Source: Asterias amurensis
Lineage: Eukaryota; Echinodermata; Asteroidea; Forcipulatida; Asteriidae
Direction of reading: 5' to 3'
Length of the DNA stretch: 64,000 nucleotides
NCBI RefSeq assembly: GCF_032118995.1
Contig: NC_092649.1
Coordinates: 24,783,332-24,847,331 of the forward strand
A model generated the notes under the pieces. That model searched no databases. It was not told the DNA's origin and saw nothing but the letters and a program-made list of their open reading frames with translations. The position numbers were made by a program, and so were the translations under genes. Position 1 is the stretch's first letter. Each line of letters opens with the position of its first letter. This document shows, piece after piece, positions 1-20,146 of the stretch.

Positions 1-378
1 TGCAACGACAAGTCCATGGCTCCAACTGGCGGTAAAGTCAACGCCACTCCCATTGACAGGCCACCTGTGAGAGGAAACCCAAACCAGGACAGACGCAGCG
101 GAACTGAGATGTCACTTCAACGTAAGACTACAAGAATGCTGTTCATTACCAGCGTCGTTTTCCTTTTGACTTGGTTCCCATACTGGCTCTATGTTGCTGT
201 TTTGCTTGCCAAGCTAGACGGTGCTGATATCGAAGAAAACGTGTTGACTGTTTTGTGGTACTGTACGCTAACTACCTACATCAATAACGTTGTGAATCCA
301 TTAATCTATGGTGTCGCAAACAGACGGTTTCAGAAAGACTGTCAAGTAGTTCTCAGGAAAATGAAAATATGGCAATGA
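1..378 (+). CDS. Class A GPCR, 3' end only (copy A, cut by window edge)
   Basis: Frame 1 is open from the first base to TGA at 376-378 and encodes the last 125 residues of a rhodopsin-class receptor. They are identical to residues 275-399 of the full gene at 8396-9595. Visible are the end of the long third intracellular loop, TM6 with TWFP (the CWxP position), TM7 with NPLIY, and a short basic tail ending KMKIWQ. The first internal ATG, at 16, lies in the loop and is not a true start. The 5' part must lie to the left of the window. Comparison with the second copy shows one synonymous change (ACT versus ACG) near the start of TM6. An intact plasma-membrane receptor is likely, but only this third is visible. 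The ligand is unknown. Confidence 0.9.
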   Translation, partial: CNDKSMAPTGGKVNATPIDRPPVRGNPNQDRRSGTEMSLQRKTTRMLFITSVVFLLTWFPYWLYVAVLLAKLDGADIEENVLTVLWYCTLTTYINNVVNPLIYGVANRRFQKDCQVVLRKMKIWQ

Positions 379-401
379 AAAAAAATACATTTTGAACCGG
401 T

Positions 402-407
402 AATAAA
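402..407 (+). terminator. Polyadenylation signal AATAAA after GPCR copy A
   Basis: AATAAA lies 24 bases after the stop codon and is conserved at 9619-9624 behind the duplicated gene. It implies a very short 3' UTR. Confidence 0.6.
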
Positions 408-584
408 CAACATTTCGGGTAAAAATGCCTGCAATCCATGAGGCACCCATTTTCACCGCAGTACAAAGGCATCCCATTATCCACAGCACTATTTTCCATA
501 CAGTTTACACTAAGGTACTCCTACTCGAGCACTAAGGACTCCCTAGTATGAGGCAACCCTTACACTAGACACCGATGGTACTCC

Positions 585-1300
585 GTGAAGGGGGGGTACA
601 TTGTACCCCAGACATCCCATGTACAACAGGTACTGAACACCCCTGTAAACCAGGTACCAAGACACCCCTTGTACTCTAGGAAGCAGGTACTTACAACAGA
701 CACCTATTGCACTTCGGGCAGTGAAGGACATTGTACTCCAGACATCCCTTGTACATTAGTGACTGAACACCCCTGTAAACCAGTACCAACACAGCACCCC
801 TGGTACTCTAGGAAGCAGGTACTTACAACAGACACCTATTGTACTTCGGGCAGTGAAGGACATTGAACTCCAGACATCCCTTGTACATTAGGTACCGGAC
901 ACCCCTGTAAACCAGTACCAACACAGCACCCCTGGTACTCTAGGAAGCAGGTACTTACAATAGACACCTATTGTACTCCGGGCAGTGAGGGACATTGTAC
1001 TCCAGACATCCCTTGTACATTAGGTACCGGACACCCCTGTAAACCAGTACCAACACAGCACCCCTGGTACTCTAGGAAGCAGGTAGTTACAATAGACACC
1101 TATTGTACTTCGGGCAGTGAAGGACATTGAACTCCAGACATCCCGTGTACAACAGGTACTGGACACCCCTGTAAACCAGGTACTAAGACACCCCTGGTAC
1201 TCTAGGAAGCAGGTAGTTACAATAGACACCTATTGTACTCCGGGCAGTGACGGACATTGTACTCCAGACATCCCGTGTACAACAGGTATTGGACACCTAT
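585..1300 (+). repeat. GTAC-rich minisatellite, 132-bp unit, about 5 units
   Basis: The anchor GTACTCTAGGAAGCAGGTA (TAC varies to TAG at its end) begins at 671, 803, 935, 1067 and 1197, giving periods of 132, 132, 132 and 130 bases. Units are full of GTAC-centred motifs such as TTGTACATTAG and AACAGGTAC. ORFs read through the array in both strands only because it lacks stops; they have no receptor or enzyme features and are not genes. The array starts about 200 bp after the GPCR stop codon. Copy B (9802-10250) has only 3 units. Confidence 0.9.
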
Positions 1301-2025
1301 TTCTTTCAACACATCACCCCTCCAGCTGTGAAAATGGTAAGGCCCTCCGCCGCCCTCGGGTAAACAACTCCTAATAAGGGAATGCTGTGCGCGGCGCGCG
1401 TATCGCGTGATGTGGCACAACTGTCCCGGCCGTAGTCTGGTCCCCTGACCAAATATTCCTTGACGTCTCTTGTTAAAAATCTTAGGTCAGGTATCACCCA
1501 CGGTTAAAAATAGAGCATGACACAACTTGCCAGGGTCGGGGGTCATCTCCGGAGAAACCATGTCTGCACTAGTTGCGATAACGTAAACCTCCTCCCGACG
1601 GCCGCGAGGCCGGAGGGTTACGAGATTATTTTGATCGGCAATTAATGACAATCTGGTTCAACACGTATAATTTCGACAGCTATAGTCACCAGATTTGCCC
1701 CATTTTTACCACTTTCAAAAATCATGAAACTTAATCCTCAATCAATGTCTAATGAACAATCAAGTCAAAACACCTTTGAAATGAAGAAAAAGGACAAAAA
1801 CATTACGATTCCATACCGAACATCAACGATACTGTCCGAATGTTGACGACAACACGTTCGGAACATTTCGGATAACTTCGAAAAAGGAGGAATCCCTCCT
1901 TTTTGGTCACGTGATTTTGGGTGATATCGGACCCATAATTCGACAGAGCCTAGTCGGAGATTTTTGGGTCTGGGAACCAGACTATCCCGGCCGTTGCTCT
2001 CGACCGATAGGAATGAAGAAACTAT
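1300..2025 (+). repeat. Dispersed repeat D, left copy, split by a nested element
   Basis: The two flanks (1300-1432 and 1985-2025) are the halves of a repeat also found whole near 24540-24705 (same orientation) and 44069-44375 (inverse). Between them sits the element at 1433-1984. Copy A ends at ACTAT (2025), whereas copy B continues for another 140 bases of the same repeat. Confidence 0.75.
1433..1984. mobile_element. Nested miniature inverted-repeat element, 552 bp
   Basis: The left end TAGTCTGGTCCCC and the right end (reverse complement TAGTCTGGTTCCC) form an imperfect inverted terminal repeat. The direct repeat TCCCGGCCG flanks it at 1424-1432 and 1985-1993. Repeat D copies near 24666 and 44240 show the unoccupied site, so this is a genuine insertion. 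No coding sequence is visible inside. The 9-bp duplication fits Mutator-like or, less well, hAT-like transposition; the family is not settled. Confidence 0.8.
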
Positions 2026-2102
2026 GGTCTATTTCAATCCTCTTGTTTAAAAACAACTTGTTTACAAACAACAACATCATATCAAGTTATTGTCATTGGC
2101 TT

Positions 2103-2270
2103 TTAGTCGACAGGGTAAAAAGAAAACCACGCAATTTCGAGGCATATTTGTTTAGATCATTGTATTCTACTTTTACAATATCTTTCTAATCATATACATT
2201 TTACAACAAACGGTTACAGAACGATTTTCAAAGACCAACTCGACCGATCCAAGGCAACGTGTTCCTTTAA
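2103..2270 (+). mobile_element. TTAA-2 element, right half only
   Basis: It begins at the centre of the long palindrome seen complete at 13144-13535 and ends with the terminal repeat ...CAACGTGTTCCTTTAA. The left half is missing, so the left duplicon broke at the palindrome centre. Confidence 0.85.
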
Positions 2271-2340
2271 ATGCAACTACAAAATAATAAATGAACCTCA
2301 CCCCTCATCTTGTTTTCTGTTGGAGTCCACGAGATGAATT

Positions 2341-2497
2341 TGCAGCGATAACGAGAACGGGAACTATAACGATAGCGACGCAAAGAGAACGCATTCCATT
2401 TGTTGGATGAGCGTGTGCGTGTTCTGCGTGGAGCAATTCAACCAATAGAGTGCGTTCTCTTTGCGTTGTGGTCGTTATCGTTCTCGTTATCGCTGCA
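2341..2497. mobile_element. Foldback element with GCAGCGATAACG ends
   Basis: TGCAGCGATAACGAGAACG at the left is the reverse complement of the right end, and the complementarity runs on through the AAAGAGAACGCATTC segment, giving arms of roughly 70 bp around a short loop. It has no coding capacity. The same element occurs twice in tandem in the right duplicon, at 13606-13762 and 13896-14052. Confidence 0.75.
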
Positions 2498-3141
2498 GTA
2501 GGACCGTGCCTTTACTGACAGTAACACTTCTCAATCTCAGATTGTGTATTTTTGTTTCAGGTTATTTTCCTGCGTGGACATAACCGCTCTTTGCTCAGCA
2601 ATATCTTTAAAACGCTTACCAAACTTTTTGAATGAAATGTTCACAGGTTAGTTTTATGGTGTATCTTTAACATGCCTGTCATTCGTGCCTACGCCCATAA
2701 GCTGGGGAACAAAACCCGTTGCTGCACCCCGGACCTGCTGGACCATGCCACTTGCTTAAAGTTCACTTTGGTATCACTTGTGTAGAATACACATGGGCTT
2801 TTGTGATCTAAGTGTTGTCCGTCGCAATAGAAGGCACGGTCGGGTTGTTTACTTTCTCTGTCTGTTCCAGAATCATAGTAGCACGGGGTTCGGGTTGCAC
2901 GTTGCAAATAATATACCCCGGGGTTTGACCGCTTGCCACTACTCAAGAGCAGGGGTGGATATGGCCCCGGGGTATGATGACCATTCGATTTAAGTTGTAC
3001 TAATCTTTTCAAACTGTTGTGAGTTGTGGCAGTATTGTAATGAATATACGCATTGCATGAAATGATCAGGTATTTAGTAGAAATTATTGAGTAATAAAAC
3101 CACAGGAAAAATAAAGAAGTGAGGCAAACGGTGGGTGTCCA
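2498..3141. other. Duplicon tail, no supported gene
   Basis: This is AT-rich sequence shared with 14053-14695. Open frames on both strands around 2700-3010 have no ATG start on the minus strand and no recognised domain. No promoter or RNA gene is visible. Confidence 0.6.
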
Positions 3142-3665
3142 CGGCTTCAGAAATATTAAGCTATACGTGAATCATAATTTTCTACTTCTTACAATATTTG
3201 TTGCCAAAAAAATAGTTAATGGCCTGACGTTTCGACCCTAGCAGAGTATTTCTCGAAGGCTAAATGACAACACAACAAACATGAACAGGTAACTAAGTGA
3301 TTTGTTGCTATAACCAAAATCGTTATGGCCCAAAGCGCCCGAATCCGAAGGCAATGCACCCCTTTAAAGCCCGAGTCTGAGTTCTTCTTTTGTACGGCAC
3401 AAGTCCATAGATTTATATTAAACTTTATATACGGTTTTAGAGAGTAGAAAGCTTCCCTTTACTTGCTGTGGTGCTACAGCTTTTTAGAAATGAATACAAC
3501 ATTATACACAAAAGGAATTTTCGTCTAATTGAGACGTAAATTATTAATCATGAACAACGGATTTCAATGATGCATAAAGACAGGTAAGTTTTATTACATA
3601 CATTTGCACTCACAGCTGCGAGTGCGGATTAATGTCATGTTCACAAACTGTATGTACGAAAGGTA
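3142..3665. other. Spacer with a possible retroelement 3' relic
   Basis: No gene is seen. The minus strand near 3221-3275 reads GGTCGAAACGTCAGGCC after a CTCTGCTAG motif, a phrase like the 3' ends of some decayed LINE or Penelope-type elements. That match rests on resemblance alone. Confidence 0.35.
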
Positions 3666-4061
3666 TTAAAGACATTGGACACTGTTGGTAATTGTCAAAG
3701 ACTAGTCTTTACATAGTTGTTGTATCTCAACATATGCATAAAATAACAAACCTGTGAAAATTTGAGCTCAGTTGGTCGTCGAAGTTGCGAGATATCAATG
3801 AAAGAAAAAACACCCTTGTCGCACCATGGTCACACGAAGTTGTGCGCTTTCAGATGCTTGACTTTGAGACCTCAAAATTCTAAATCTGAGGTCTCGAAAT
3901 CAAATTCGTGGAAAATTACTTCTTTCTCAAATACGTCACTTCAGAGGGAGCTGTTTTTCACAATGTTTTGTACTATCAACCTCTCCCCATTACTTGTAAT
4001 CAAGAAAGGTTTTATGATAATAATTATTTTGAGTAATTACGAATAGTGTCCACTGCCTTTA
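3666..4061 (-). mobile_element. TTAA-1 miniature inverted-repeat element
   Basis: TTAA flanks both ends, and the termini AGACATTGGACACTGTTGGT and its near-complement (...AATAGTGTCCACTGCCT) form the inverted repeat. The interior carries the family hallmarks: CTCAGTTGGTCGTCGAAGTTGCG, the GAGACCTCA/TGAGGTCTCG hairpin and CAGAGGGAGC. It is noncoding. Confidence 0.9.
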
Positions 4062-6691
4062 AAACATTTAATTATACGCACTCGCTCTATTTTTTGATCG
4101 CGTCATTAAATTTGTGCATCAAACTGCACTTGAGCGAGATGAACCAATTACAGTTCCTAGCACCCCCTCAACTGGCAATCTATACTATTAAAAGCGTAAC
4201 CTGCGCCATCTTGGATTGAAAATGAGAAGGTCCAGTGGTATGGCATCCCTGTGGAATCCAACACGGTTGTTTGTGTGGAATTCAATACGTTTGTGTGGTT
4301 TCAGACGTCGGGTTGCAAGTCTGCAAAACCCGGATCCAAACTCGCACTTACAAGTCATGTGATTGGAGGAAGTTTGGGCGGCGACCGTGCGTCAACCACT
4401 GGTTGATGTTGTTACCAGACTTCCTAGAAATTTTTCTGACAGGCGACTCATTGGACAGTGTTTCGCAGATGGTGCTCCGGATTGGTTCATTCATTGCCCC
4501 TTGCACGCCCACCCGCCATTCGATCCGCCCTTTTTGGTCAGGTTACTTTCGTGTTGTACTAAGCATGGTTCTCCGGATTGGTTCATTCATTGCCGCGCAG
4601 GGTCGAAAGGGTCGAAGAGGCTGGGTGCCAGGACAAAACCGAAACCAATCTCACGAATTTGACCGAATTTGCATTGAATGGATGAAGTACCGTAGATTGA
4701 TGTTTCGCAGGCGACCATGTGTCAACCACTGGTCGACGTTGTTATCAGACTTCCTAGAAATCCTTCTGCGGGTGACTCATTTGTTGAAAAGATTAAATGG
4801 AGAATATTTATAAAAAAGCATTCACTTCCAAACGGCATGAGAATTATCATGATGAACAAGGATGGGATCAAACGGAAGCTTAATAATTTGGAAACATTGG
4901 GTAGGGCCGGCTATAGGTTGGAAGGTGTCTAAGGGAACTTTACAATTAATAACATTTTGGGGGTGGGGGGGCCTTACACAAAGAGCCATTCTGGTCAGTG
5001 TATTGTGAGTGGTGTGTTGTCTGGTTTGAGACAGGCCATCTGTTGCTTGGTGAAGAAGGTCGCCGTGGGACCACTTTAGGTTGACAGTGGGTGGCGACCT
5101 TGGACCTTTTGCCAGTAAACTCAAATGGGTACATGAATACTGTTTTAGAATACGGTCTGTTCATGGAGGTATAATGTTGCAGTTTCAGAGTTTAACAATG
5201 GAGGTAGAATTGTGAAACCATTCCTTACTCTATGGTGAAACGTATACACGTACGTCAAAGGCTGTTTTGAAGCTGTAAAAAAAGAACTTTGCTTTGCATT
5301 TGGTCAAAGTTTTAAGCAAAACGACATTAAGTTTCCTTTTGAATAAGTCCATTCACAAAATTGGTTAGAGCAGTGTGTCGGTCAGGTCTCAGAATGTACA
5401 TTTTGCCAAATCCATTTTGAAGCCTATAATTTAGCCATCGGCCCGTCGGGTTGGTTACTGATGGAGATAATATTAACAAAAGAGACCTCGTGCGGCTGAA
5501 TGGGGTACATTTTTAGGAGTTTGTCTATTGACCCAAACTGGACGTAACAAACCCTAAACATGACTTGACATGCTTTCTGAAAGTGAAATAAGTTAGAGAA
5601 AATTAAGGAGTGGGGACGAGTTTATCGTTTTTATTTAGTTTGTACGATATAGGGTTCCAGAGATATGGGATGTATGGAGGTTTGTTCCTAGAGCAGCGTG
5701 AACATGAACGCGGTCAGAAATTGTGTCGTTTGTCGTTCAAATTTCGCGAGATGCAATAAGCCCAAAGTGACAATAAAACAAAACCAGACCTGCCAAGTCT
5801 CACGCATTAGGCGTGAGACTCACGCATTTGGGCTCTGTCTCACGCTCACACGCACATCAACCATTATTGGGGCGAGATCGGGAAAAAAAATTAACGACAT
5901 TTTTGGTACAAAATTTGTACAAACAGAGCGCAAATTTGCAGATTGCGCACGCTTCTGCTCATCCAGTAGGTTCAGCTCAAATTCGGCAGAGCACAAAACG
6001 CTTATTGCGCACAAGTTTGTTCCGATTCTTTTAGCAAATTCGTTGAAATGCGCTCCACTAGCGAAGACACAACAGGCAGAAGAAGTGAGCGATTGATTTT
6101 GAACATCATTTTTAGTCTATTTTTTTCAAGTTTGGAAGGATATAATCTGACACAATCGAACCTCCACATTAACCATCAACATCTCCTGTGTACCTCAAGT
6201 GAGTTTTAATTATTCTGAGGAGGTTTTTGATGCATTTTGAAACACTTTTTGTCCACAATTAAATTTCAAATTGTTTTATTTATTTATAAAAAAAAATAAA
6301 ATAAAAAAAAGGTTGGGCGGCGATTTAAAAAGGCCTTCTTAAACTGGCTATTTTTTTCCGGGGGGGATGGGGGTTGAGCTTTGAAAAATCTCCCACATAC
6401 TGATAGCTAGCCTCTGGACTTGGCATCTTTGCCTGCAAAACACTTTTTTGACGTTCACGTTAAGTGCTCCCGTTATACATGCAGCCTATTGACCAGAAAG
6501 TTTACAAGACCAATTCAGATGAGAATAAACTAAAAAGAGGCCTACGCTCTTACCCCCCCCCCCCTCCCGAAAAAAACAGTAGATAAATTAGATTTGTGGC
6601 ACACAGCATGTTCCAAAAACTCGCTTTACTTATAGTGCTGTAGCAACGCTATGTATCGTGGGACGTAAAAATGTCATTTTTAACGATGTTT
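4062..6691. other. Intergenic sequence with small local repeats
   Basis: No gene is supported. A segment of about 70 bp at 4380-4452 (GTCAACCACTGG, ACTTCCTAGAAAT) recurs at 4710-4776, and CTCCGGATTGGTTCATTCAT occurs at 4475 and 4571, so the long open frame at 4235-4813 is a repeat artefact. A TCTCACGC-rich palindrome lies at 5797-5845 and a 12-base poly(C) at 6553-6564. Confidence 0.6.
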
Positions 6692-6889
6692 TTAAAAATT
6701 GGTGCTTGTCTTATTAGGTTTGGGCCAATACACTCCGAGAATCAGACTGTTCCCAAACAGCCCGAGCAGCATCACGATAATATAGAAGATGATCTTCAGG
6801 ATGGCGTTAAGGACCAACCCGACATCAGGTCCCTGCGGTTTATCCGGTATCCAGCCCATGGTGGAGCTCTCGATGGATCCGTTATCCAT
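6692..6889 (-). pseudogene. 5' fragment of a GPCR gene (inverted, truncated)
   Basis: From ATG at 6889 the minus strand encodes 65 residues and then stops (TAA, 6694-6692). Residues from GWIPD through KTSTN match residues 10-62 of the 399-aa receptor with two substitutions (E to K, T to S), covering the N-terminus, TM1 and the start of the first intracellular loop. Homology stops within TM2's start and unrelated sequence follows, so only one membrane helix could be made. DNA identity over the matching part is about 96 percent by eye. It retains a promoter-like 5' region and points head to head with the intact gene at 8396. It is probably a truncated duplicate; a short membrane peptide product cannot be excluded. 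Confidence 0.85.
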
Positions 6890-7043
6890 TTTGTTAAACT
6901 CACAAATACCGGGTTCTTGTTTTCTAGTGAAGGTTATGGAATGGTACACAGAACGGACTATATATTTTATTCATAAGCGGTATAAACTCTTCTCAGTCTT
7001 CCCTTTCGATTCACACATATGACTAGATTTGTCATACAACGAT

Positions 7044-7086
7044 CTTATATACAATCTCAAATACACGAGTGACGCAAATGGTGATG
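7044..7086 (-). promoter_or_regulatory. Promoter of the inverted GPCR fragment (TATA plus TGCGTCA motif)
   Basis: On the minus strand, CATCACCATTTGCGTCA (7086-7070) is followed 18 bases later by TATATAAG (7051-7044), about 160 bases before the ATG. The same 17-base motif and TATA box stand before the intact gene at 8396, while the sequence around them has diverged. Confidence 0.7.
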
Positions 7087-8202
7087 AAGAAGATGAAGTC
7101 TTGACAAAGCAGAAATCGATAGACAGCTCCGTTAGATTCGATTTCAAGTTGTTGTCGAGTTTTTTTGGCAGATGATCAAATGCAATTTCATGTCCCGGTC
7201 CGGATTTATGCTGGATTACAACCGAGTATTACTAGATTATAGTTACCTTGACGTGGTGCTGTCAAATTTGTCTTGTGTTATTAGATGCTATCTTGTACTG
7301 CTAACAAAACATATACTATGCATTTTATTTTCTCTGTTGTCAGAGCCATTGTTGGCTTCTCACAATGACCAATCCAAAAGAGTTTTCAATAAAAGTACAC
7401 GCATCGAAGACACTATTCACACGTTTACAAAGCTTTGTACAATAATGATATAGTCCTCTAAAAAGCAAGGTCTCTAGGTATAAGGACGGTACTGTGCGAG
7501 AAAGGACAGGAGGAATGGCTATTCTCTTTTTCGTCTAAAGTTGCACTTCAAAAAAGGAAAAAGAAAAGGGACGTCATAAGAGCCAAACATGTGGGACGTC
7601 AATGCAAACAGTCAAATAAGTATTGATTCATATTTCCAGGAGTGCACAAGATGCTTCAGTACCGGAGTAAACTAAATTCCCGATTCAGTTTTGTGCTGAA
7701 TCTCATATGTCCCACTGGCAACAACTAATCAAGTTGTGATTTTTTAAGTACAGCTTGAGAAAATACAAGAATATGCTTTGTCCTTTCTCCGTGTCCTCTC
7801 CCATACAGTATCATCTGTAAATACTATAAGCCCCAGGTAACTTGGTTTGGTTGCTAACGTTATTGTTCATTATATTTGTACAAATCTTTGTCGATATTCT
7901 AACGTCTTCAGTGCATGTACTTTTATTTAAATACTGTATTTGATTAGATAGTAGTACAGTACAGTATTTTCTTTATATAATGCAACATAAAGTTGACAAA
8001 AACGTCACGTAACTAATGGGATAATACCTAATATTAGTTTAGGCATGACATCAGCTTCTTCTTTTTTATATCCTATAATACAATTATTGCCCATTCATTT
8101 GCAACACTGAATCATGTGATAGATAAAATGCCTTTGTAACAAGAAATTGTCAACTGGAAACGAAGAATGAAAAGCGGAGTTAACGTAGTTACGAGTATTC
8201 TC
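7087..8202. other. Spacer between the divergent promoters
   Basis: AT-rich unique sequence. The ORF at 7172-7453 has no recognised feature. I see no repeat family member and no RNA gene here. Confidence 0.5.
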
Positions 8203-8243
8203 CATCACCATTTGCGTCATCTTGCATTGTTGTATATAAAAGG
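8203..8243 (+). promoter_or_regulatory. Core promoter of the 399-aa GPCR gene
   Basis: CATCACCATTTGCGTCA (8203-8219) lies 13 bases before TATATAAAAGG (8233-8243), a strong TATA box. Transcription should begin near 8265-8275, giving a 5' UTR of about 125 bases with no need for an intron. TGCGTCA resembles an AP-1/CRE half-type bZIP site. Conservation of both motifs in front of the inverted fragment supports function. Confidence 0.75.
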
Positions 8244-8395
8244 CATGCAAGACTTAGCTGATCATTATTTGGTATGGTATTAAACGAGAGAGGGTTCATT
8301 CTGAAAGAGTCTGATTGTATTCTATGAATCTATACTGTGCGTGATTCCACTGCATTTGCCAGAAAGAAAAACTGTGCATTTAACGTAAAAAAGAA

Positions 8396-9595
8396 ATGGA
8401 TAACGCAACAACTTCCACCACGGGCTGGATACCGGATGAACCGCAGGGACCTGATGTTGGGTTGGTCCTCAACGCCATCCTGAAGATCATCTTCTATATT
8501 ATCGTGATGCTACTCGGGCTGTTTGGGAACAGTCTCATTCTCGGAGTGTATTGGCCCAAACCTAATAAGACAACCACCAATATCCTGATCATGGGGCTGG
8601 CTGGGATGGACCTCACCGTCTGCATGATGAGAGTACACAACCTCGCCGTCTTCATATCGTTTCTGGCTAACAAGGAGACCCCATTTGCTTTCCAGTACAT
8701 AAGAGTGATAAGCTTGGTGAGTCTCTTCGCCTCTGCTGTGCTGACCGGCTTCATTGCAGTGGACAGGTACGACTGCGTATGTCGGCCGAACAACCGATGG
8801 CTAAATCGCTTCGGAGCAAAGCTGCTGATTTTCGGTTCATATGGTCTAGCGATAATCCTTTTGATCCCACAGGCATTTGTAACATTCTGGATGCCCGATT
8901 CAAACGCACTCAGAAAAGCGGGTCTGGTCTGTCAGTTAGTACTGTACATCGTGGTAGTAGTCTTCATATGCATCTTCTATTGGAAAGTTCACATCACCAT
9001 ACGAAAGCATGTGAAAGTAAACGTATTAAGTCGACGTCTAGTTGAAAATGATCGGTCGACTGCTGCAGGGTCGATATGTCCCTCTCGAAGCACTGGCGAT
9101 GTATGGACATTAATGCCCTCAACCAAAGTCAAACCATTTGATCAATCTCATCTAAAGAGTATGACGAAAACACATCAAAACATCCCCTCAACTTCAAGGA
9201 AGTCAGATAGCCTTACTTGCAACGACAAGTCCATGGCTCCAACTGGCGGTAAAGTCAACGCCACTCCCATTGACAGGCCACCTGTGAGAGGAAACCCAAA
9301 CCAGGACAGACGCAGCGGAACTGAGATGTCACTTCAACGTAAGACGACAAGAATGCTGTTCATTACCAGCGTCGTTTTCCTTTTGACTTGGTTCCCATAC
9401 TGGCTCTATGTTGCTGTTTTGCTTGCCAAGCTAGACGGTGCTGATATCGAAGAAAACGTGTTGACTGTTTTGTGGTACTGTACGCTAACTACCTACATCA
9501 ATAACGTTGTGAATCCATTAATCTATGGTGTCGCAAACAGACGGTTTCAGAAAGACTGTCAAGTAGTTCTCAGGAAAATGAAAATATGGCAATGA
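8396..9595 (+). CDS. Class A (rhodopsin-like) GPCR, 399 aa, no visible intron
   Basis: Seven-helix receptor in one exon. TM1 is about residues 26-52 (GN at 44-45, position 1.50), TM2 62-85 (LAGMD, D72 at 2.50), TM3 100-122 followed by DRY at 123-125, TM4 141-163, TM5 177-200, a long polar third loop at about 205-315, TM6 316-343 with TWFP at 331-334, and TM7 354-378 with NPLIY at 373-377. The N-terminus is short (about 25 residues, one NAT glycosylation site) with no signal peptide. The usual cysteines at the start of TM3 and in extracellular loop 2 are absent, and so are the TM4 tryptophan and TM5 proline. The start is chosen by the upstream TATA box and by agreement with the paralogues. Short polar N-terminus, single exon and clustered paralogues suit a lineage-expanded chemosensory-type or orphan peptide receptor; the ligand is not predictable. 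The C-terminal third is duplicated at 1-378. Confidence 0.93.
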   Translation: MDNATTSTTGWIPDEPQGPDVGLVLNAILKIIFYIIVMLLGLFGNSLILGVYWPKPNKTTTNILIMGLAGMDLTVCMMRVHNLAVFISFLANKETPFAFQYIRVISLVSLFASAVLTGFIAVDRYDCVCRPNNRWLNRFGAKLLIFGSYGLAIILLIPQAFVTFWMPDSNALRKAGLVCQLVLYIVVVVFICIFYWKVHITIRKHVKVNVLSRRLVENDRSTAAGSICPSRSTGDVWTLMPSTKVKPFDQSHLKSMTKTHQNIPSTSRKSDSLTCNDKSMAPTGGKVNATPIDRPPVRGNPNQDRRSGTEMSLQRKTTRMLFITSVVFLLTWFPYWLYVAVLLAKLDGADIEENVLTVLWYCTLTTYINNVVNPLIYGVANRRFQKDCQVVLRKMKIWQ

Positions 9596-9618
9596 AAAAA
9601 AATACATTTTGAACCGGT

Positions 9619-9624
9619 AATAAA
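9619..9624 (+). terminator. Polyadenylation signal AATAAA after the 399-aa GPCR
   Basis: It lies 24 bases past the stop, in the same place as in copy A. Confidence 0.6.
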
Positions 9625-9801
9625 CAACATTTCGGGTAAAGATGCCTGCAATCCATGAGGCACCCATTTTCACCGCAGTACAAAGGCATCCCATTATCCA
9701 CAGCACTGTTCTCCATACAGTTTACACTAAGGTACTCCTACTCGAGCACTAAGGACTCCCTAGTATGAGGCAACCCTTACACTAGACACCGATGGTACTC
9801 C

Positions 9802-10250
9802 GTGAAGGGGGGGTACATTGTACCCCAAGCATCCCATGTACAACAGGTACTGAACACCCCTGTAAACCAGGTACCAAGACACCCCTTGTACTCTAGGAAG
9901 CAGGTACTTACAACAGACACCTATTGTACTCCGGGCAGTGAGGGACATTGTACTCCAGACATCCCTTGTACATTAGTGACTTGACACCCCTGTAAACCAG
10001 TACCAACACAGCACCCCTGGTACTCTAGGAAGCAGGTAGTTACAATAGACACCTATTGTACTTCGGGCAGTGAAGGACATTGAACTCCAGACATCCCGTG
10101 TACAACAGGTACTGGACACCCCTGTAAACCAGGTACTAAGACACCCCTTGTACTCTAGTAAGCCGGTACTCACAATAGACACCTATTGTACTTCGGGCAG
10201 TGAAGGACATTGTACTCCAGACATCCCGTGTACAACAGGTATTGGACACC
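9802..10250 (+). repeat. GTAC-rich minisatellite, 3 units
   Basis: Anchors GTACTCTAGGAAGCAGGTA or variants lie at 9888, 10020 and 10150 (periods 132 and 130). It is the same array as 585-1300 with two units fewer. Confidence 0.9.
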
Positions 10251-11098
10251 TATTTCTTTCAACACAACACCCCTCCAGCTGTGAAAATGGTAAGGCCCTC
10301 CGCCGCCCTCGGGTAAACAACTCCTAATAAGGGAATGCTGTGCGCGGCGCGCGTATCGCGTGATGTGGCACAACTGTCCCGGCCGTAGTCTGGTCCCCTG
10401 ACCAAATATTCCTTGACGTCTCTTGTTAAAAATCTTAGGTCAGGTATCACCCACGGTTAAAAATAGAGCATGACACAACTTGCCAGGGTCGCGGGGTCAT
10501 CTCCGGAGAAACCATGTCTGCACTAGTTGCTATAACGTAACCCTCCTCCCGACGGCCGCGAGGCCGGAGGGTTACGAGATTATTTTGATCGGCGATTAAT
10601 GACAATCTGGTTCAACACGTATAATTTCGACAGCTAGTCACCAGATTTGCCCCATTTTTACCACTTTCAAAAATCATGAAACTTAATCCTCAATCAATGT
10701 CTAATGAACAATCAAGTCAAAACACCTTTGAAATGAAGAAAAAGGACAAAAACATTACGATTCCATACCGAACATCAACGATACTGTCCGAATGTTGACG
10801 ACAACACGTTCGGAACATTTCGGATAACTTCGAAAAAGGAGGAATTCCTCCTTTTTGGTCACGTGATTTTGGGTGATATCGGACCCATAATTCGACAGAG
10901 CCTAGTCGGAGACTATCCCGGCCGTTGCTCTCGACCGATAGGAATGAAGAAACTATCTTATAAGCACAGGTGCAAGCTCGCGTGTCACGCCCATGTTTCA
11001 ACACGTTTTACTGGTACTAACCAAAGGTTTATACACACCCACGTGATGGGCTCTCCACCAATATGAATAGCGAAACTGTCTGAGGTATTTATGAATAT
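10250..11098 (+). repeat. Dispersed repeat D, right duplicon copy, split by a nested element
   Basis: Left part 10250-10385 and right part 10916-11098 together match the inverse of 44069-44375, including CCGATAGGAATGAAGAAAC, TTATAAGCACAGGTGCAAGC and the ACACACCCACGTGATGGGC segment. Confidence 0.8.
10386..10915. mobile_element. Nested element inside repeat D, 530 bp (right copy)
   Basis: Same element as 1433-1984 with TCCCGGCCG duplications at 10377-10385 and 10916-10924. The right terminal repeat is damaged: the GGGTCTGGGAACC segment present in copy A is missing, which fits a small deletion after duplication. It is noncoding. Confidence 0.8.
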
Positions 11099-11424
11099 GT
11101 AATTAAATGTAAACTTTCTCTCCGTTGCAAAACTTAGTTTTTCATGGAGTGGTACTTGTGTCCAGTAAAAACATTCATCCTCTCTAGATAAACTTGTGAG
11201 AGAAAACTTTACTGCATTAAGCAGAAGTGATCATGACGTTTTGTTGGGTTATTTATTACTTTCCAAACTTTAAAGGCATATTCTCCGTGTGGTATATTTA
11301 ATCAGCTGTTGACTCCGCTCGTGAGTTTTTCTGAACCATCTATTCGTTGATTTCTATTTAATATACAGAACCTCTGTAATATTTTTTTTTTTACAGATCC
11401 TTCAATTTGTTATTGTAATTATAT

Positions 11425-11595
11425 ACAAATATTGACTGCTTCGAGTGCTATGGTTAAAACTATGACTCCCGAGGTGATCCCCGGAGCGTTCTATTTTCCC
11501 GAGGCGAAGCCGAGGGAAAATAGAACGCTCCGGGGATCACCGAGGGAGTCATAGTTTTTGACCATTGCACGAGTAAAAGCAGTCAATATTTGTTT
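11425..11595. mobile_element. Large palindrome, arms about 75 bp
   Basis: The left arm ACAAATATTGACTGCTT... through CTATGACTCCC, GTGATCCCCGGAGCG and TTCTATTTTCCC reads back on the right as GGGAAAATAGAACGCTCC, GGGGATCAC, GGGAGTCATAG and GCAGTCAATATTTGT. The spacer at the centre is only a few bases. It is probably a foldback transposable element; no coding. Confidence 0.75.
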
Positions 11596-11754
11596 TATAA
11601 CACCCCGAACATTTCTAAATACTGTACTATTATTATTAAGTTACAGACCTGAATGCTACAATCCACGGACGACGCGAATACAGATTGCAAACACTTTTAC
11701 TTACTGTGTAGCATGTAGTGTCGTGCAATCCGAAATGGTTACAGACTATTAATT

Positions 11755-11940
11755 TATCATCCTCGTACACGCAACGGACGTCTGGGTACTGCACGCCATG
11801 TGCTAGTCTGTCGGACTAGCGCATGGCAAACCGACGCTCTATCACACGGCCGTCGTCTGGCAAAACTAAGACATGTAATGTGACGCGCTCTAAACCAATG
11901 AGCAGGCAGAATACTTGCAAGGGGTGTTATAATACTAATT
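11755..11940 (+). repeat. Dispersed repeat F (copy 1)
   Basis: GGACTAGCGCATGGCAAACCG, TATCACACGGCCGTCGTCT, GTGACGCGCTCTAAACCAAT and GGGGTGTTATAA recur in the same order at 34170-34310 with scattered substitutions. It is noncoding. Confidence 0.75.
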
Positions 11941-12437
11941 ATTGTTGAACAACACCAGAAAGTAATTGCTAAACAATAATTGCAGCATTTATCCCTAGAG
12001 GGGAGCCGCATTTATTCATAAAGCTATAAGCAGCCCAAACCCACCGGTCCGAAAACCCGCAGCGAATTTCAATGCTGTTCCAGTCCATTATCAAATTGAA
12101 TTTGTATTTTTTTAATCACCTGACGAAGCATTGGCTTGAACTTAGCGAAAATGTAAAACATGTTTTTTTAACTTTCTCATAGCATTGCAAAAATAGTTGT
12201 CTAATAAAATCACAGTTAAAATTACGGATAGCATCAGGTAAACATGACTTGTTTAACCTAATATAATAACCCTAATAAAAAACACAGCAAAGAATTATAC
12301 TAGAAATTACAGAAATAAACCGGGGAAAAAACTATAGACCCCATAAAAAAAAAACAAGAATCACCCGAGTGTATAAAAGAAACTATCCGTAGACCTCCGA
12401 CTACTACCAAAAATAAATGCCTTACAAACCTGAAGCT

Positions 12438-12905
12438 GGATGAAACTCATCCCGGATTATAGATCCACAAAAAGTCAAAGTTAAGACGTTTAAAGACCCT
12501 GTTAACGCCACACTTAACGAAATTTAAGACCAACAGTAAATGAATAATGCATGGGAGACAAAAAAACAATCTATGAAACCCTTTTAAAAGCATGATTTGC
12601 TCGAGGATAAAAAAGCTATCAGTTAAACTCTTACTACAATAACAAAAGAAGATGCTTTAAAATGTATAAAACGGTATGGATGAAACTCATCATAGATTAT
12701 AGATCTGTAGTACACAAAAAAAATCACATTTTGGACTTCTTAAGAACCTTTTAATGCCACCCTTGACAACATTTAAAAACAAGAGTAACTGAATAAAGAG
12801 AAACAGCTCATATTTTATAATAACGTTTGTTTTACATGCTGCGTAGTTCGGTTCTAACGTGAGCTGGTAGGAAAATTCAGTACAGGCTTCATCCAAAAGA
12901 CAAAT
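12438..12905 (+). repeat. Imperfect tandem repeat, 240-bp period, 2 units
   Basis: GGATGAAACTCATC followed by GATTATAGATC starts at 12438 and again at 12678. Later landmarks (ACGCCAC.CTT.AC.AA.ATTTAA, then GTAA.TGAATAA) follow at matching offsets. The units are considerably diverged. Confidence 0.65.
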
Positions 12906-12935
12906 CACCTAATTGAATCCCTTTTAGAACTTTTG

Positions 12936-13090
12936 AAAGGCCCTGGACACCGTTTGTAATTGTCCAAGAACAAATATTAGAATTTTTTAAATAACAAATC
13001 GGTGAAAGTTTGTACTCAATTAGTCATCGCAGCTACAACAGAACATTGAATGAAACAAAAACCTTGCGAAAATTTGTGTTCTTTCAGCTG
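12936..13090 (-). mobile_element. TTAA-1 fragment, decayed
   Basis: AAAGGCCCTGGACACCGTTTGTAATTGTCCAAGA is a degraded terminal repeat of the family, followed by weakly matching interior. The far end is lost. Confidence 0.55.
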
Positions 13091-13143
13091 GCTCGTCTCG
13101 TAACAGTCGTCTAAAACTAATTACATCCATGCCGCTTAGATTC

Positions 13144-13535
13144 TTAAAGGAACACGTTGCCTTGGATCGGACGAGTTGGTCTATTAAAGGCGTTTGAAAC
13201 CGTTTGTTATGAAATGCATAATATGGTTAGAAAGATGTTTTAAAAGTAGAATATAATAATCTACACAAGTATCACTCGAAACTGCACGGTTTTCATTTTA
13301 CGTCGCGAACTATCACGGTCGGCCATTTATGGGAGTCAAAATTTACTCCCATAAATGGCCGACCGTGTTAGTCGACAGGGTAAAAAGAAAACCACGCAAT
13401 TTCGAGGCATATTTTTGTAGATCATTGTATTCTACTTTTACAATATCTTTCTAACCATATACATTTTACAACAAACGGTTACAGAACGATTTTCAAAGAC
13501 CAACTCGACCGATCCAAGGCAACGTGTTCCTTTAA
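13144..13535. mobile_element. TTAA-2 long-palindrome element, complete
   Basis: TTAA flanks both ends (13144-13147, 13532-13535). The termini AGGAACACGTTGCCTTGGAT and the complementary ATCCAAGGCAACGTGTTCCT extend through the whole element into a central perfect stem of GGCCATTTATGGGAGT and its complement around a spacer of about 10 bases. The whole unit can fold into one hairpin. It is noncoding. Relatives lie at 2103-2270, 36716-37106 and 51340-51610. Confidence 0.9.
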
Positions 13536-13605
13536 ATGCAACTACAAAATAATAAATGAACCTCACCCCTCATCTTGTTTTCTGTTGGAGTCCACGAGAT
13601 GAATT

Positions 13606-13762
13606 TGCAGCGATAACGAGAACGAGAACTATAACGATAACGACGCAAAGAGAACGCATTCCATTGGTTGGATGAGCGTGTGCGTATTCTGCGTGGAGCA
13701 ATTCAACCAATAGAATGCGTTCTCTTTGCGTTGTGGTCGTTATCGTTCTCGTTATCGCTGCA
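13606..13762. mobile_element. Foldback element with GCAGCGATAACG ends, first tandem copy
   Basis: Same 157-bp foldback unit as at 2341-2497, with both terminal arms intact. Confidence 0.75.
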
Positions 13763-13895
13763 GTAGGACCGTGCCTTTACTGACAGTAACACTTCTCAAT
13801 CTCAGATTGTGTATTTTTGTTTCAGGTTATTTTCCTGTTATTTTCCTGAACCTCACCCCTCATCTTGTTTTCTGTTGGAGTCCACGAGATGAATT

Positions 13896-14052
13896 TGCAG
13901 CGATAACGAGAACGAGAACTATAACGATAACGACGCAAAGAGAACGCATTCCATTGGTTGGATGAGCGTGTGCGTATTCTGCGTGGAGCAATTCAACCAA
14001 TAGAATGCGTTCTCTTTGCGTTGTGGTCGTTATCGTTCTCGTTATCGCTGCA
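13896..14052. mobile_element. Foldback element with GCAGCGATAACG ends, second tandem copy
   Basis: Doubled with its flanks by the 290-bp tandem duplication rather than by a new insertion. Confidence 0.75.
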
Positions 14053-14695
14053 GTAGGACCGTGCCTTTACTGACAGTAACACTTCTCAATCTCAGATTGT
14101 GTATTTTTGTTTCAGGTTATTTTCCTGCGTGGACATAACCGCTCTTTGCTCAGCAATATCTTTAAAACGCTTACCAAACTTTTTGAATGAAATGTTCACA
14201 GGTTAGTTTTATGGTGTATCTTTAACATGCCTGTCATTCGTGCCTACGCCCATAAGCTGGGGAACAAAACCCGTTGCTGCACCCCGGACCTGCTGGACCA
14301 TGCCACTTGCTTAAAGTTCACTTTGCTATCACTTGTGTAGAATACACATGGGCTTTTGTGATCTAAGTGTTGTCCGTCGCAATAGAAGGCACGGTCGGGT
14401 TGTTTACTTTCTCTGTCTGTTCCAGAATCATAGTAGCACGGGGTTCTGGTTGAACGTTGCAAATAATATACCCCGGGGTTTGACCGCTTGCCACTATTCA
14501 AGAGCAGGGTGGATATGGCCCCGGGGTATTATGACCATTCGATTTAAGTTGTACTAATCTTTTCAAACTATTGTGAGTTGTGGCAGTATTGTAATGAATA
14601 TCCGCATTGCATGAAATGATCAGGTATTTAGTAGAAATTATTGAGTAATAAAACCACAGGAAAAATAAAGAAGTGAGGCAAACGGTGGGTGTCCA

Positions 14696-15833
14696 ATTTG
14701 TTTTAAAGATCAACTATTGTTAACCAACGAAATGACCAGGAGGTATTGAGCATTGAGGCGAGCTTCAAACTAACAAGATGGTACATGTGCGTACGCATTT
14801 ATCTGCAAACGACAATGAACGAACACGTCTGTGGAATTGCCTGTAGTTTCATCCCCGGAGTATTCTGGAAGAAGTGGTTTTTTTTTACGGGCGTGATTTC
14901 CGTGAAGTGTTGGTGGATGTCAGTGACCTACATCACTACATCGATTCACAACCAACTTCGATTGTACAGACAAACGTTGAAACATCGTGAGCGCAAAGTC
15001 GTGGAATGACCAGCAAAAAAATACAACTTAGGAAGTCAATCACGCAAAATGGCTGTGTATTTAAGGAGTTGAAAACAGGGGGGGGAGGGTGATATAGTGC
15101 GGATTTACAGTGTTTACGGTGTCGATATACCGTTGGGAAAGGGGTGGATGTGCCCGACACTTCGAGACGCTCGGGTGGCATAAGGACATTGGACATAGCG
15201 TAATCTAAACATGCGATGTATCATCGTTCCTATATATGATTAAAACATCTAACTGGTTGCAAATAAAATTGGAAGGTTGTCCACTCCTTTACACCGTCTA
15301 TCTTAAAAAAGTGGACACAATTGTAATTGTCACAGACCAGTCCATAAAATAACGGCTTTGCCCGGTCGGATATCAGCGCTGGATTACGCCAACTCAACTT
15401 CAACTCCATCTGCGTATTATGTTCAAACCCCTAGTTCGTGCTCCAGGCTGATTCAAATTCAAATTCAAGAAAGCCAGCACGGGTGTTTACTTCATACGTC
15501 AACAATTGGTTGTCTTGGAAACAGTTTTCAGTCCCCGAAGCAAGGACAAGGAGCTGTTTTTGCAACACTTCAATTCCCTTTCCTAATTGTCAAAGTCCCT
15601 TAATTTCTTCAAACTACAATAGAACAAATTGTTTCATCATCATTTTGTCGTAACCATCATTGTATCTCGAAGTACGCCGGTTCATCATTGTCCCAATCCA
15701 CAGGTACAGCTAGTTTTTAAATTGATTGTCCATCGTACTCACGTTGCCAATAAACCGACTCGGAACATTTAAGTGCAAAAGACTTCCCGAAGAAGACCCG
15801 CGTACGTGTTAACTATTTCAAAAGAAAAAATAT
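14696..15833. other. Intergenic sequence, nothing supported
   Basis: It starts where duplicon homology ends. Near 15308-15345, GTGGACACAATTGTAATTGTCACAGACCAG is a very worn relative of the TTAA-1 terminus. Open frames here show no domain. Confidence 0.5.
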
Positions 15834-16211
15834 AAAAGATACTGGACACTGTATTGGTAATTGTCGAAGACCAGGCTTCTCACTCGGTATACCCCAACAT
15901 ATGAATAAAAATTTAAAAAAACTGTGAGAATTTTAGCTCAATTTGTCGTCGAAGTTGCGAGATAATAATAAATGAAAAAACACCCTTGTCACACGAAGTT
16001 GTATGCTTTCAGATGCTTGATTTCGAGACCTCAAATTCTAAATCTGAGGTCTCGAAATCAATTTCGTGGTAAATTTTAAATGACCTCTGTCTCGAAAACT
16101 ATCAGAGGGAGACGTTTCTCACAATGTTTTATACTATCAACCTCTCCCCATTACTCGTGACCAAGTAAGGTTTTATGGTAATCATTATTGTGAGTAATTA
16201 CCAATGCTTTT
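15834..16211 (-). mobile_element. TTAA-1 element, near full length, worn ends
   Basis: It runs from ACTGGACACTGTATTGGTAA to GAGTAATTACCAATG. The internal hairpin GATTTCGAGACCTCA ... TGAGGTCTCGAAATC is perfect, at 16019-16059. Both TTAA flanks have been lost. Confidence 0.85.
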
Positions 16212-17791
16212 CGCCAGTATTATGTGGCCAGTATTAACTTATACAGCTCCGTTTATTCCATATGCACACCAACACCTTTTTCATATTTTTAGTATGTTTA
16301 TGTATGCCAGTTAATTAGGATCTCGACGTATAGGGTGAGGTGCTGTCAACCTCTAACATCTATTTTTTGTCCTTCCTGTTAATACTCTTGTTAATCTCGA
16401 GAGAGAGTCGAAGAAAAAAAAGTTTGCTCCTTGTGTTTTTGTTTAGTTTTAATAATCATTTTTCTTCAATGTGGTTTTAACTGGGTTTTTTCTTCATTAC
16501 CTGTTGCTTGTTACGTTAATGATTTTTTTTTTTCGTGTTAAGCGCTTGGGGCCAGGCATGAGGCGCTATATATAATACCTTTTCCAGTATTACTCGGAAA
16601 TAACAAAATCTTTTAACAAATAGGAAATGAATGACACATTTAGGTGTTCGTCAGTATATTTTTAGTGAAATGTTAACCAAGCTCAATAGCTGAATTCAAA
16701 GCATATGCTTTGTTCATCCATCATTGTTTGTTTTGGTCGTATTTAAAATTCAATTCTGTTGTTCGATCTAGCAGAAAGCCAAAACTTGCCATCCTTATGG
16801 TCAATTTTCAACGTTAGACTGTGTATTAACATTCAACTCAGGGTTTCCGCAGACCTTTAAAAAATAATAAACAAATGCTAAGTTGAACTATCGCATATTG
16901 AGGCCTTAAAGGCACTGGACACTAATAACAATTTCTCAAAAGAAATTAAAGCATCAAAAACTTACTGGGCAACGAGCAACGGGGAGCTGTTGATAGTACA
17001 AAACATAGTGAGAAACGGCTCCCTCTGAACGTAGTTTTTGAGAAGGAGGTAATTTCCGAACTCAAATTTTAATATACTTCAGCCTCTATTTTTAGTCTAT
17101 ATCCTTGGACAAATCAACTACAGCGTGCAGACTAAAATACATTTTTAACAATAAAGGGCGTGGCAGCCTCGCACTTCGAATCGACTTATGGGGAAATAGA
17201 ATCAAAGAGTATTTTTATCCTTCTCGGTATACAATATTGAAAAATGACGATATTAAAGTAAACCAAGTTGAAAGCAATTTAGTACTGAGACACACTGTAC
17301 CTTAAATTATTTTTGAAGCACTTAGAAGTTTTAGGAGCATGGGAAACAACAAGTCAACAATAACAAAATCAAAGTAAAAACTTACTTAAAACTGTTACTC
17401 TGCAAACCCAACTACAGAAACCTAAAACAACCTACTTACAATTTAACATAATGTTCAATATTGCAAGACAAAATGTCAATCGAAAAAGCTTTAGACCAAA
17501 AAAAGACAGAGTCAAACCAGGCTCACTAAAAAAGGAAGACAGGCGGTGAACACTATTCTGTGGAGAATTAATGAGCTGGGCTAGCGCAATCCCAGATTTC
17601 CAACAGAAGCAAAGTGTAAAGAACGTAGCGAATAATTCTCGCAACTTTCCTCTGCTGGAATCAAATGGCCTGAGTTATGGTATGGTCCTATCCCTCGTCG
17701 GATATCAACTCTAGTCACATCTTCCTCAATTGATGATTATCCTAAACAGTTACAACCCAGCAAGCACCACATCTACATTGGTCATCCACAA
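16212..17791. other. Intergenic, with a SINE-tail-like phrase and a TTAA-1 fragment
   Basis: No gene is seen. AAGCGCTTGGGGCC ... GAGGCGCTATATATAA at 16541-16576 resembles the 3' tail shared by several deuterostome SINEs. A TTAA-1 fragment lies at 16906-17075. The ORF at 17105-17305 has no recognised feature. Confidence 0.45.
16906..17075 (+). mobile_element. TTAA-1 element, left part only
   Basis: TTAAAGGCACTGGACAC leads into the family interior (AACGGGGAGCTGTTGATAGT, AACGGCTCCCTCTGAA) and stops before the central hairpin. Confidence 0.75.
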
Positions 17792-17904
17792 CTAGCTCGT
17801 GCATCTCATCCTGTCACGTGATGCATAAGTTAATACTTTTCACAATGATTGACGTGTGCTTAGTACACTTTTCTCCTGAGAGACAAGGAGGGACGAGAGG
17901 GAAA

Positions 17905-17913
17905 TATATAAAG
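17905..17913 (+). promoter_or_regulatory. TATA box, promoter unit 1
   Basis: TATATAAAG, 85 bases after CACGTG, would start transcription near 17935-17945. Role inferred from sequence only. Confidence 0.55.
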
Positions 17914-18100
17914 AGAGAGAATATTAGTTGACAAAGTGAAGTCGCTTCCGATTGGCACAACTTCTCGGCTATGCATTAGCTAGCTCGTGCATCTCATCCT
18001 GTCATGACAGCACGTGATGCATAAGTTAATACTTTTCACAATGATTGACGTGTGCTTAGTAAACCATTCTCCTGAGAGACAGGGAGGGGCGAGAGGTAAA

Positions 18101-18109
18101 TATATAAAG
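18101..18109 (+). promoter_or_regulatory. TATA box, promoter unit 2
   Basis: TATATAAAG in the same context as in unit 1. It is the closest intact TATA box upstream of the 402-aa receptor gene. Confidence 0.55.
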
Positions 18110-18331
18110 AGAGAGAGTATCAGTTGAATAAGTGAAGTCGCTTCCGATTGGCACAACTTCTCGGCTATGCGTTAGATAGCTCGTGCATCTCATCATGTCA
18201 CGTGATGCATAAGTTAATACTTTTCTCAATGATTGACGTGTGCTTAGTACACTTTTCTCCTGAGAGACAGTAGGGGCGAGAGGAAAATAGGAAGAGAGAG
18301 AATATCAGTTGAATAAGTGAAGTCGCTGCAA

Positions 18332-18937
18332 TGAGGTTAGCTGTGTTCGCCTTTGCCGAACGAAGACTTGAATGAAAGTTTCCGGTGCATGCTACATACA
18401 GACTACAGACATCATTAGTGGCGGTAACCTTTTAAGTGGATCGGCGAACCTTTTTTGTATCGAAGAAGATACTTCTAGGTTGACTCTCGTATGAGAAACT
18501 GCGACTCCTCCGCTAGTATTCCCCTCTCGTGAAATACGGGAAACTGAGCTTTAAACGCTGTGAAAGATACTGACTCCTTCAACGGGTGAGAGCAGAGATT
18601 TCAAGTTTTGAATGTTGTCTTGGCTTTGTTGATTTTAAAAAGACTCGTGGTAATTTATCGTTTGAGCTCCAGTTCCTGCCTTGTGCAGGAAGAGTTTGTT
18701 CTCCCGGTACTGAAAGTATCTCCATGAAATCGAAAAAACAACCAGGTATCAGTGTAACAGTTTCTTCAAAGTAGTTTGCTTTATGCTTTAAAGACGTCTC
18801 CGTGACAAGTGACACAGACAGTCCAGACAAAACGAATAGCAGCAGCTCTCCAAGTCGAGAATTCAGTCCAGTCCTTGTGAGACATTGACAATTCATTAAC
18901 TAAACAACAATCGTGATTTGCACCGGGCAAAAGAAAA
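18332..18937 (+). other. Probable 5' UTR or leader of the 402-aa GPCR gene
   Basis: It lies between the tandem promoter modules and the ATG. It contains several upstream ATGs and CAACGGGTGAGAG at 18578, which could be a splice donor. No clear acceptor is seen before 18938, so whether the leader is spliced cannot be decided. No recognised protein is encoded. Confidence 0.4.
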
Positions 18938-20146
18938 ATGAGTAACATGTCAGTCGAGACCTCTACCACGGACTTAAGACCGGATGAACCACCGCAGGGA
19001 CCCGATGCAGGGCTTCTCCTCAACGCAATCGCCAAGATTATCTTTTACTCTCTTGTGATGCTACTTGGGCTGTTTGGGAACAGTCTCATTCTCGGCGTGT
19101 ATTGGCCCAAACCTAATAAGACAAGCACCCAAATCCTGATCATGGGGCTTGCTGGGATGGACCTCACCGTTTGCCTGATGAGAGTCTACAACCTTACCAT
19201 GTATCTAATGTTTATCCAAAATAAGGAGACCCCATCGGCGGTTGAGTACATCGGAGTGATAGGCTTGGTGAATATGTTTGCGTCTTCTGTGCTGACCGGG
19301 TTTATTGCATTGGACAGGTACGACTGCGTGTGTCGCAGACCGGCAGACCGTTGGCTGAACCGCAACAGAGCCAAGATGATGATTCTCGGTGCGTACGCTG
19401 GGGCGATGCTCTTTGCTAGTCCGCGTATACTGGAGGTAATCTGGCTGCCAGCCACACTCGCCTTGCAGAAGACTTTTCTGGTGTTTCAAATTGTACTTTA
19501 CATCTTGGTGCTTGGCGTCATTTGCGTTTGCTACGGGCAGGTGTACGTAACCGTGCAGAAGCATGTCAAAGTGAATGTTCCTAGTGAGCGCCATGCACAC
19601 AATGATTTGTCGACAACGATGCGGGTACCCTCCTCGCGACACGGTGCGATACCAGCCATTGCGGACAAGGTACAAGTCACATTGCCCAAAAGCAGTGACG
19701 GTGGTCCACCCTCCACATCTAGACGACCAGAGAGAAGCGAAGCGGTCGGCTTACCAGCGGGCGTAGCCATTGAGTCCCGAAATGACCAGCCTATGACTGC
19801 AACTCAAGGTAATGTTAACTCCGCCCCAACTGGCCGTCCACGGAGGAACGTGAACCCAAACCAACTCAAATGTGAGGCGGTCTCACTCCAACGCAAGACG
19901 ACTAGAATGATGTTCGGCACCAGCGTTGTACTCCTCGTGACGTGGTTCCCATACTGGCTCTATGTTGCCTTGAGTTTATTCAAACTTAGCGGCGCTCCTA
20001 TCCCCATGTACGTAACGAAGGCCGTATACTACTGTACCGTCTCTGTGTTCATTAATAACATCTTTAATCCAATAATCTATGGTCTTGCGAACAGACGATT
20101 TCGGAAGGACTGTCTGCACGCAATGAAGAAAATGAAATTGTGTTGA
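18938..20146 (+). CDS. Class A (rhodopsin-like) GPCR, 402 aa, paralogue of the 399-aa gene
   Basis: Single-exon seven-helix receptor. TM1 is at about residues 29-55, TM2 65-88 (LAGMD), TM3 103-125 followed by DRY at 126-128, TM4 144-166, TM5 180-203, a long third loop at about 208-318, TM6 319-346 with TWFP at 335-338, and TM7 357-382 with NPIIY at 377-381. The basic tail ends KKMKLC. It shares an almost identical TM1 to TM2 segment and DRYDCVCR with the 399-aa gene but diverges strongly in TM4, TM5 and the third loop, so it is an older paralogue. Like that gene it lacks the TM3 and loop-2 cysteines of most class A receptors. N-terminal NMS is a possible glycosylation site. The ATG is the first in frame and aligns with the paralogue. 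Likely controlled from the tandem modules at 17792-18331. Ligand unknown. Confidence 0.93.
   Translation: MSNMSVETSTTDLRPDEPPQGPDAGLLLNAIAKIIFYSLVMLLGLFGNSLILGVYWPKPNKTSTQILIMGLAGMDLTVCLMRVYNLTMYLMFIQNKETPSAVEYIGVIGLVNMFASSVLTGFIALDRYDCVCRRPADRWLNRNRAKMMILGAYAGAMLFASPRILEVIWLPATLALQKTFLVFQIVLYILVLGVICVCYGQVYVTVQKHVKVNVPSERHAHNDLSTTMRVPSSRHGAIPAIADKVQVTLPKSSDGGPPSTSRRPERSEAVGLPAGVAIESRNDQPMTATQGNVNSAPTGRPRRNVNPNQLKCEAVSLQRKTTRMMFGTSVVLLVTWFPYWLYVALSLFKLSGAPIPMYVTKAVYYCTVSVFINNIFNPIIYGLANRRFRKDCLHAMKKMKLC

Follow-up and report, generated by a model that had tools for sequence, protein, structure and literature searches.

The window, i.e., the whole stretch of 64 kb of Asterias amurensis DNA analysed here, contains two intact single-exon receptors of class A (7tm_1), called B and C, the cut 3' end of a third one (A) and an inverted 5' fragment (F). 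The same four elements within 20 kb had been reported in the first-pass annotation, and their coordinates are right according to the ORF listing, Pfam and tblastn (Table 1). The 7tm_1 bit scores are 93.6 for B, 99.9 for C and 40.3 for A, vs. a curated cut-off of 30.5. An in-frame stop is localized 15 nt (B) and 24 nt (C) upstream of the ATG, and an AATAAA starts at base 24 (A and B) or base 43 (C) after the stop codon. From these nearby signals, the coding region of each receptor is predicted to be one exon, though an intron may still interrupt the 5'UTR.

Table 1. Position, strand and description of the features of the receptor cluster in the window.
Feature	Positions	Strand	Description	Evidence
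Receptor A	1..378	+	C-terminal 125 codons with the stop; truncated at the window edge	7tm_1 E 3.4e-10
Receptor B	8396..9595	+	399 aa, single coding exon	7tm_1 E 1.9e-26
Receptor C	18938..20146	+	402 aa, single coding exon, older paralogue	7tm_1 E 2.2e-28
Fragment F	6698..6889	-	inverted copy of B codons 1-62; 64 open codons in F	tblastn E 4e-30
Palindrome, left arm	6698..7646	-	F and its upstream region	arm score 615
Palindrome, right arm	7655..8581	+	upstream region of B and first 62 codons	alignment of arms
Putative core promoter of B	8206..8240	+	CACCATTTGCGTCA (8206-8219) and TATATAAA (8233-8240)	
Same putative element in F arm	7044..7083	-	CACCATTTGCGTCA (7070-7083) and TATATAAG (7044-7051)	
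Segmental duplication, copy 1	1..3141		left end outside the window	self-comparison
Segmental duplication, copy 2, part pairing with copy 1	9218..14695		includes 10957-13367, absent from copy 1	self-comparison
132-base minisatellite after A	559..1297		5.6 copies	
132-base minisatellite after B	9776..10250		3.6 copies	

Twenty stop-to-stop frames of at least 110 aa overlap positions 20100-64000. Receptor C is among them; Pfam was run on the remaining 19 and assigned only two to a family, one being an LRR-Ig protein and the other a calponin-homology exon. There is no receptor among the 19. When B and C were searched by tblastn over the 64 kb, with matches up to E 100, none beyond 20146 fell below E 1 (best match to the right: E 3.6), this right-flank search being one that could miss a diverged receptor broken up by introns. 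As no further copy appears in 20147-64000, the cluster probably ends, on its right side, inside the window, and the lack of another receptor copy in the 44 kb to the right counts against a «large expansion».

The other contents of the window are as follows. The LRR-Ig frame (31275-33569, minus strand) is a single-exon frame of 764 aa with LRR_8 (E 1.3e-41), Ig_3 (E 4e-15) and a C-terminal hydrophobic stretch, i.e., a predicted membrane protein of the neuronal-adhesion LRR-Ig type without introns. The exon with the calponin-homology domain (59881-60339, plus strand, E 1.3e-15) presumably resembles the first coding exon of filamin. A 196-base tandem repeat (17793-18327, 2.8 copies) is localized 0.6 kb upstream of C; TATATAAAG is found in two of its three copies and the repeat is possibly a multiplied promoter. 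A dispersed repeat of ~400 bases occurs at 3666-4062 and at 14 other places (pieces >150 bases), on both strands and partly incomplete, and no coding capacity was found in it. A family of fold-back elements with long inverted arms is present at 13143-13541, 36710-37106 and 51337-51611. NCBIfam, Rfam and tRNA searches gave no match.

The DRY, WxP and NPxxY motifs are all present in B and C. The extended motif DRYDCVCR, proposed earlier as a family signature, is indeed carried by both intact copies; as a signature it relies on these two sequences (n=2), A and F stopping short of it. DRYDCVC and two variants have no mention in the literature searched. The third loop had been said to exceed 100 residues, and B agrees: 102 residues separate the conserved block that ends at N209 from the one that starts at S312, and the gap between TM5 and TM6 is about 114 residues when estimated by hydropathy. 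No Cys is found at the places of the TM3-ECL2 disulphide, neither in B (77-126 and 130-178) nor in C (80-129 and 133-195). This disulphide is usual in class A, not universal, and some class A receptors are without it. An AlphaFold2 model made from two sequences has seven long helices and a short eighth one, at low confidence (mean pLDDT 44.8).

Over 386 aligned residues, B and C are identical at 220 (57%). Their dN is 0.33 and their dS 0.91; the resulting dN/dS of about 0.36 suggests that both genes are maintained by purifying selection. The animal proteins compared with B and C were those of solved structures. Among them the best matches are the cholecystokinin, neuropeptide FF, neuropeptide Y Y2, somatostatin and C3a receptors, with E values of 1.1e-14 (B), 3.5e-16 (profile of B and C) and 5e-15 (C, with an engineered C3a receptor fusion). 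The similarity to these peptide and anaphylatoxin receptors is low and mostly limited to partial stretches, and B and C differ by the missing TM3-ECL2 cysteines. Since the nearest solved receptors are mostly peptide, chemokine and anaphylatoxin receptors, a chemosensory role is not favoured by this comparison. The 7TM_GPCR_Srw family was rejected for C (16.2 bits, under its cut-off of 22.2). A pattern search for relatives gave 600 matches in viral contigs and 58 in prokaryote genomes, none of which was confirmed.

A and B are nearly identical: one substitution in 375 coding bases, and 23 in the 1923 compared non-coding bases of the duplication (1.2%), a count that leaves out the 132-base minisatellite, bases 2026-2102 of copy 1, the block 10957-13367 and an extra 290-base repeat copy in copy 2. 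The coding part is not significantly less changed than the flank (p 0.16). Together with the identity of B and C given above, this bears out the initial description of one near-identical pair and a much older paralogue. The fold-back repeat at 13143-13541 is whole in copy 2, while copy 1 has its right part only (2103 pairs with 13368); as it retains this part alone, copy 1 most likely lost the 2.4 kb block 10957-13367. A simple tandem duplication would place the start of copy 2 at 3142, giving a unit of about 11.55 kb with F inside, so that another F would be expected to the left of the window.

The A/B pair could also be an assembly artefact, i.e., two haplotypes of one locus placed side by side, and the cluster would then be reduced to B, C and F. 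The non-coding divergence, the difference in minisatellite copy number and the presence/absence of the 2.4 kb block fit two alleles, and divergence in this range is plausible between alleles of an outbred marine animal. However, the 64 kb contain no N and thus no scaffold gap at the junction, and the break is clean, the sequence beyond 3141 being unlike that beyond 14695. Neither point is decisive; the artefact is considered unlikely and a true tandem duplication is preferred.

Together, F and B form an imperfect palindrome, head to head, with arms of about 0.94 kb in which both upstream regions are included: the similarity runs through them to the centre near 7650. The first-pass annotation, which had F alone, missed this extension, but its more general proposal, i.e., growth by segmental duplication and inversion through events of clearly different age, is supported by the A/B blocks and the F/B arms. 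The upstream arms score 615, vs. a maximum of 337 in 300 dinucleotide shuffles, and the distal part of the arms alone scores 396, vs. a maximum of 265 in shuffles. Arms that are reversed and uncomplemented reach at most 332 over 624 centres. CACCATTTGCGTCA, without an exact match elsewhere in the window, is kept in both arms, each time followed by a TATA-like block. No other copy of the F or B arm was found in the window at E 1e-3, and the possibility that the palindrome is a common repeat was rejected on this basis.

It must be noticed that palindromes are not rare in the window, as four other centres (near 35250, 36900, 13350 and 50250, out of 1248 scanned) score above 615 and, among 200 neighbouring inverted pairs taken at random, six attained the 396 of the distal arms (highest: 700). 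Both arms overlap repeats recurring in the window for the centres near 35250, 36900 and 13350, and one arm does for that near 50250. A score of 387 is reached by 42/624 inverted pairs, 34/624 direct pairs, 17/624 pairs with partners about 20 kb apart and 0/624 pairs that are reversed only. The genome as a whole may be rich in inverted duplications. Further imperfect palindromes (arms of ~440-740 bases, 65-71% identity) are centred near 50250, 61200, 11500 and 59250, the last one with a score close to the background maximum.

The end of F was examined in two other respects. It was rejected as a splice site: past codon 64 the sequence enters TTTTTAAAA, without GT at the break. A further stretch of decayed receptor may lie behind F (minus strand, below 6698) but was not counted as a remnant, the protein and DNA scores being mostly within those of shuffles. 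The three-frame protein scores are 36, 33 and 38 for B and 46, 30 and 33 for C, to be compared with 200 shuffles (95% point: 44 in both cases; highest scores: 53 for B and 50 for C); the DNA scores, 255 and 199, are within shuffles. Only one of the six tests is just over the 95% line; it corresponds to residues 127-149 of C, around DRY (6163-6101, tblastn E 1.9).

The divergence between F and B is uneven. Upstream, 229 of 677 aligned bases differ (K80 0.45), vs. 12 of 186 in the coding part (K80 0.068; Fisher 7e-16). If protein constraint alone were acting, synonymous sites would be about as diverged as the arms; the four-fold sites are lower (4/27 differ, p 0.024, a weak test on its own). A comparable pattern is observed between B and C, where synonymous changes among identical degenerate residues amount to 23/93 in codons 1-130 vs. 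52/115 in codons 131-399 (Fisher 0.0024). The break point is at codon 128, with a permutation p of 0.019, which is the fairer value since the split at 130 was picked after seeing the data. Outside the coding regions no similarity was found between the upstream regions of C and B (166; shuffles up to 202), between those of C and F (124; shuffles up to 211) or between the downstream regions of B and C (82; shuffles up to 140).

In both pairs (F-B and B-C) the 5' coding part is thus less diverged than its surroundings, which suggests gene conversion as the simplest reading of the two. Selection on the protein and on synonymous sites could give the same likeness without any conversion: codons 1-130 hold TM1-TM3, the best conserved part of the protein, with a dN of 0.14-0.17 vs. 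0.34-0.60 later. Nevertheless, synonymous changes too are scarcer in these codons, and we regard selection as a rather less probable cause than not, to be kept behind gene conversion.

Gene conversion also has a bearing on the status of F. F might be a working short gene, encoding a peptide made of the N-terminus and first helix, and not debris: its frame is open from the ATG to codon 64, the upstream element and TATA-like block are kept, and dN and dS against B are 0.043 and 0.153. The open frame can be explained, however, by a recent conversion from B; moreover, a stop occurs two codons past the last codon common with B, and F alone has no Pfam match to E 1. A working F thus appears very improbable. 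Slightly more improbable still is a regulatory use, in which plus-strand read-through would produce a hairpin giving small RNAs, or a truncated first-helix peptide, that would act on the adjacent receptors, the arms being matched by conversion. If this were true, the coding stem would match B at ~94%, hence the A/B genes. The preferred reading of F remains a fragment left by a local inverted duplication.

Echinoderms are already known to carry tandem receptor arrays made up mostly of single-exon genes, and the cluster is a further case. The genome of the crown-of-thorns starfish is described as containing 775 rhodopsin-like receptors and 63 putative olfactory receptors, many of which form tandem arrays; on scaffold 10, 12 receptors of the ApOR set of Acanthaster planci are spread over 140 kb and occur in both orientations (PMC5442662). 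The likeness to ApOR, taken from that description, lies in rhodopsin-like tandem arrays and in a highly variable third intracellular loop. On the contrary, the ApOR set has conserved cysteines in TM3 and the extracellular loops (PMC5442662), and B and C are without them at TM3/ECL2. Sea urchin surreal-GPCRs, named in the same article as expanded rhodopsin-like sensory receptor families, are likewise comparable by description, as expanded rhodopsin-like families of an echinoderm. Lineage-specific expansions are also described for adrenergic-like receptors (PMC6267866).

In sea cucumbers, OR-like genes are reported as mostly single-exon and in tandem arrays, and the echinoderm clades OR-l3 and OR-l4 as retaining only LxxxD of the vertebrate motif (PMC7042368). 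The vertebrate odorant-receptor motif LxxPxYxxxxxLxxxDxxxxxxxxP is absent from B and C; a weak LxxxD core is present at 68 and 71, respectively. B and C thus share this core and the single-exon tandem layout with the sea cucumber receptors, LxxxD not being discriminating. The single-exon tandem array of echinoderm OR-like genes is found here as regards coding regions, with three receptor copies of which the first is cut by the edge. The cluster therefore fits the array layout of sea stars and sea cucumbers by description, not by sequence. The chemosensory use suggested in the first-pass annotation is a guess published for comparable arrays; by this analogy it is conceivable for B and C, though doubtful.

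The two complete receptors, the 3' end of A and the inverted fragment F thus display at least three different degrees of divergence. The locus is likely a small tandem cluster of working class A orphan receptors with single-exon coding regions, shaped by: (i) an old duplication, by which C would have parted from the ancestor of A and B; (ii) an inverted duplication, local and about 0.94 kb long, by which the upstream region of B and its first 62 codons would have been copied head to head, giving F; (iii) the recent duplication in tandem of a unit of probably 11.5 kb, from which A and B would derive; (iv) gene conversion between paralogues, which would hold down divergence in the 5' coding part relative to its surroundings. 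B and C are most likely ordinary G-protein-coupled receptors, which would bind their ligand in the helix bundle, with the DRY and NPxxY switch intact, and pass the signal via the long variable third loop.

What is new here is that the palindrome takes in the upstream regions and that gene conversion is probable. Provided that the gene models are right, the cluster would be a compact example of the growth of a receptor array, with all steps inside 20 kb. The processes it illustrates are known ones, here at a readable scale, and the understanding of such arrays is left unchanged.
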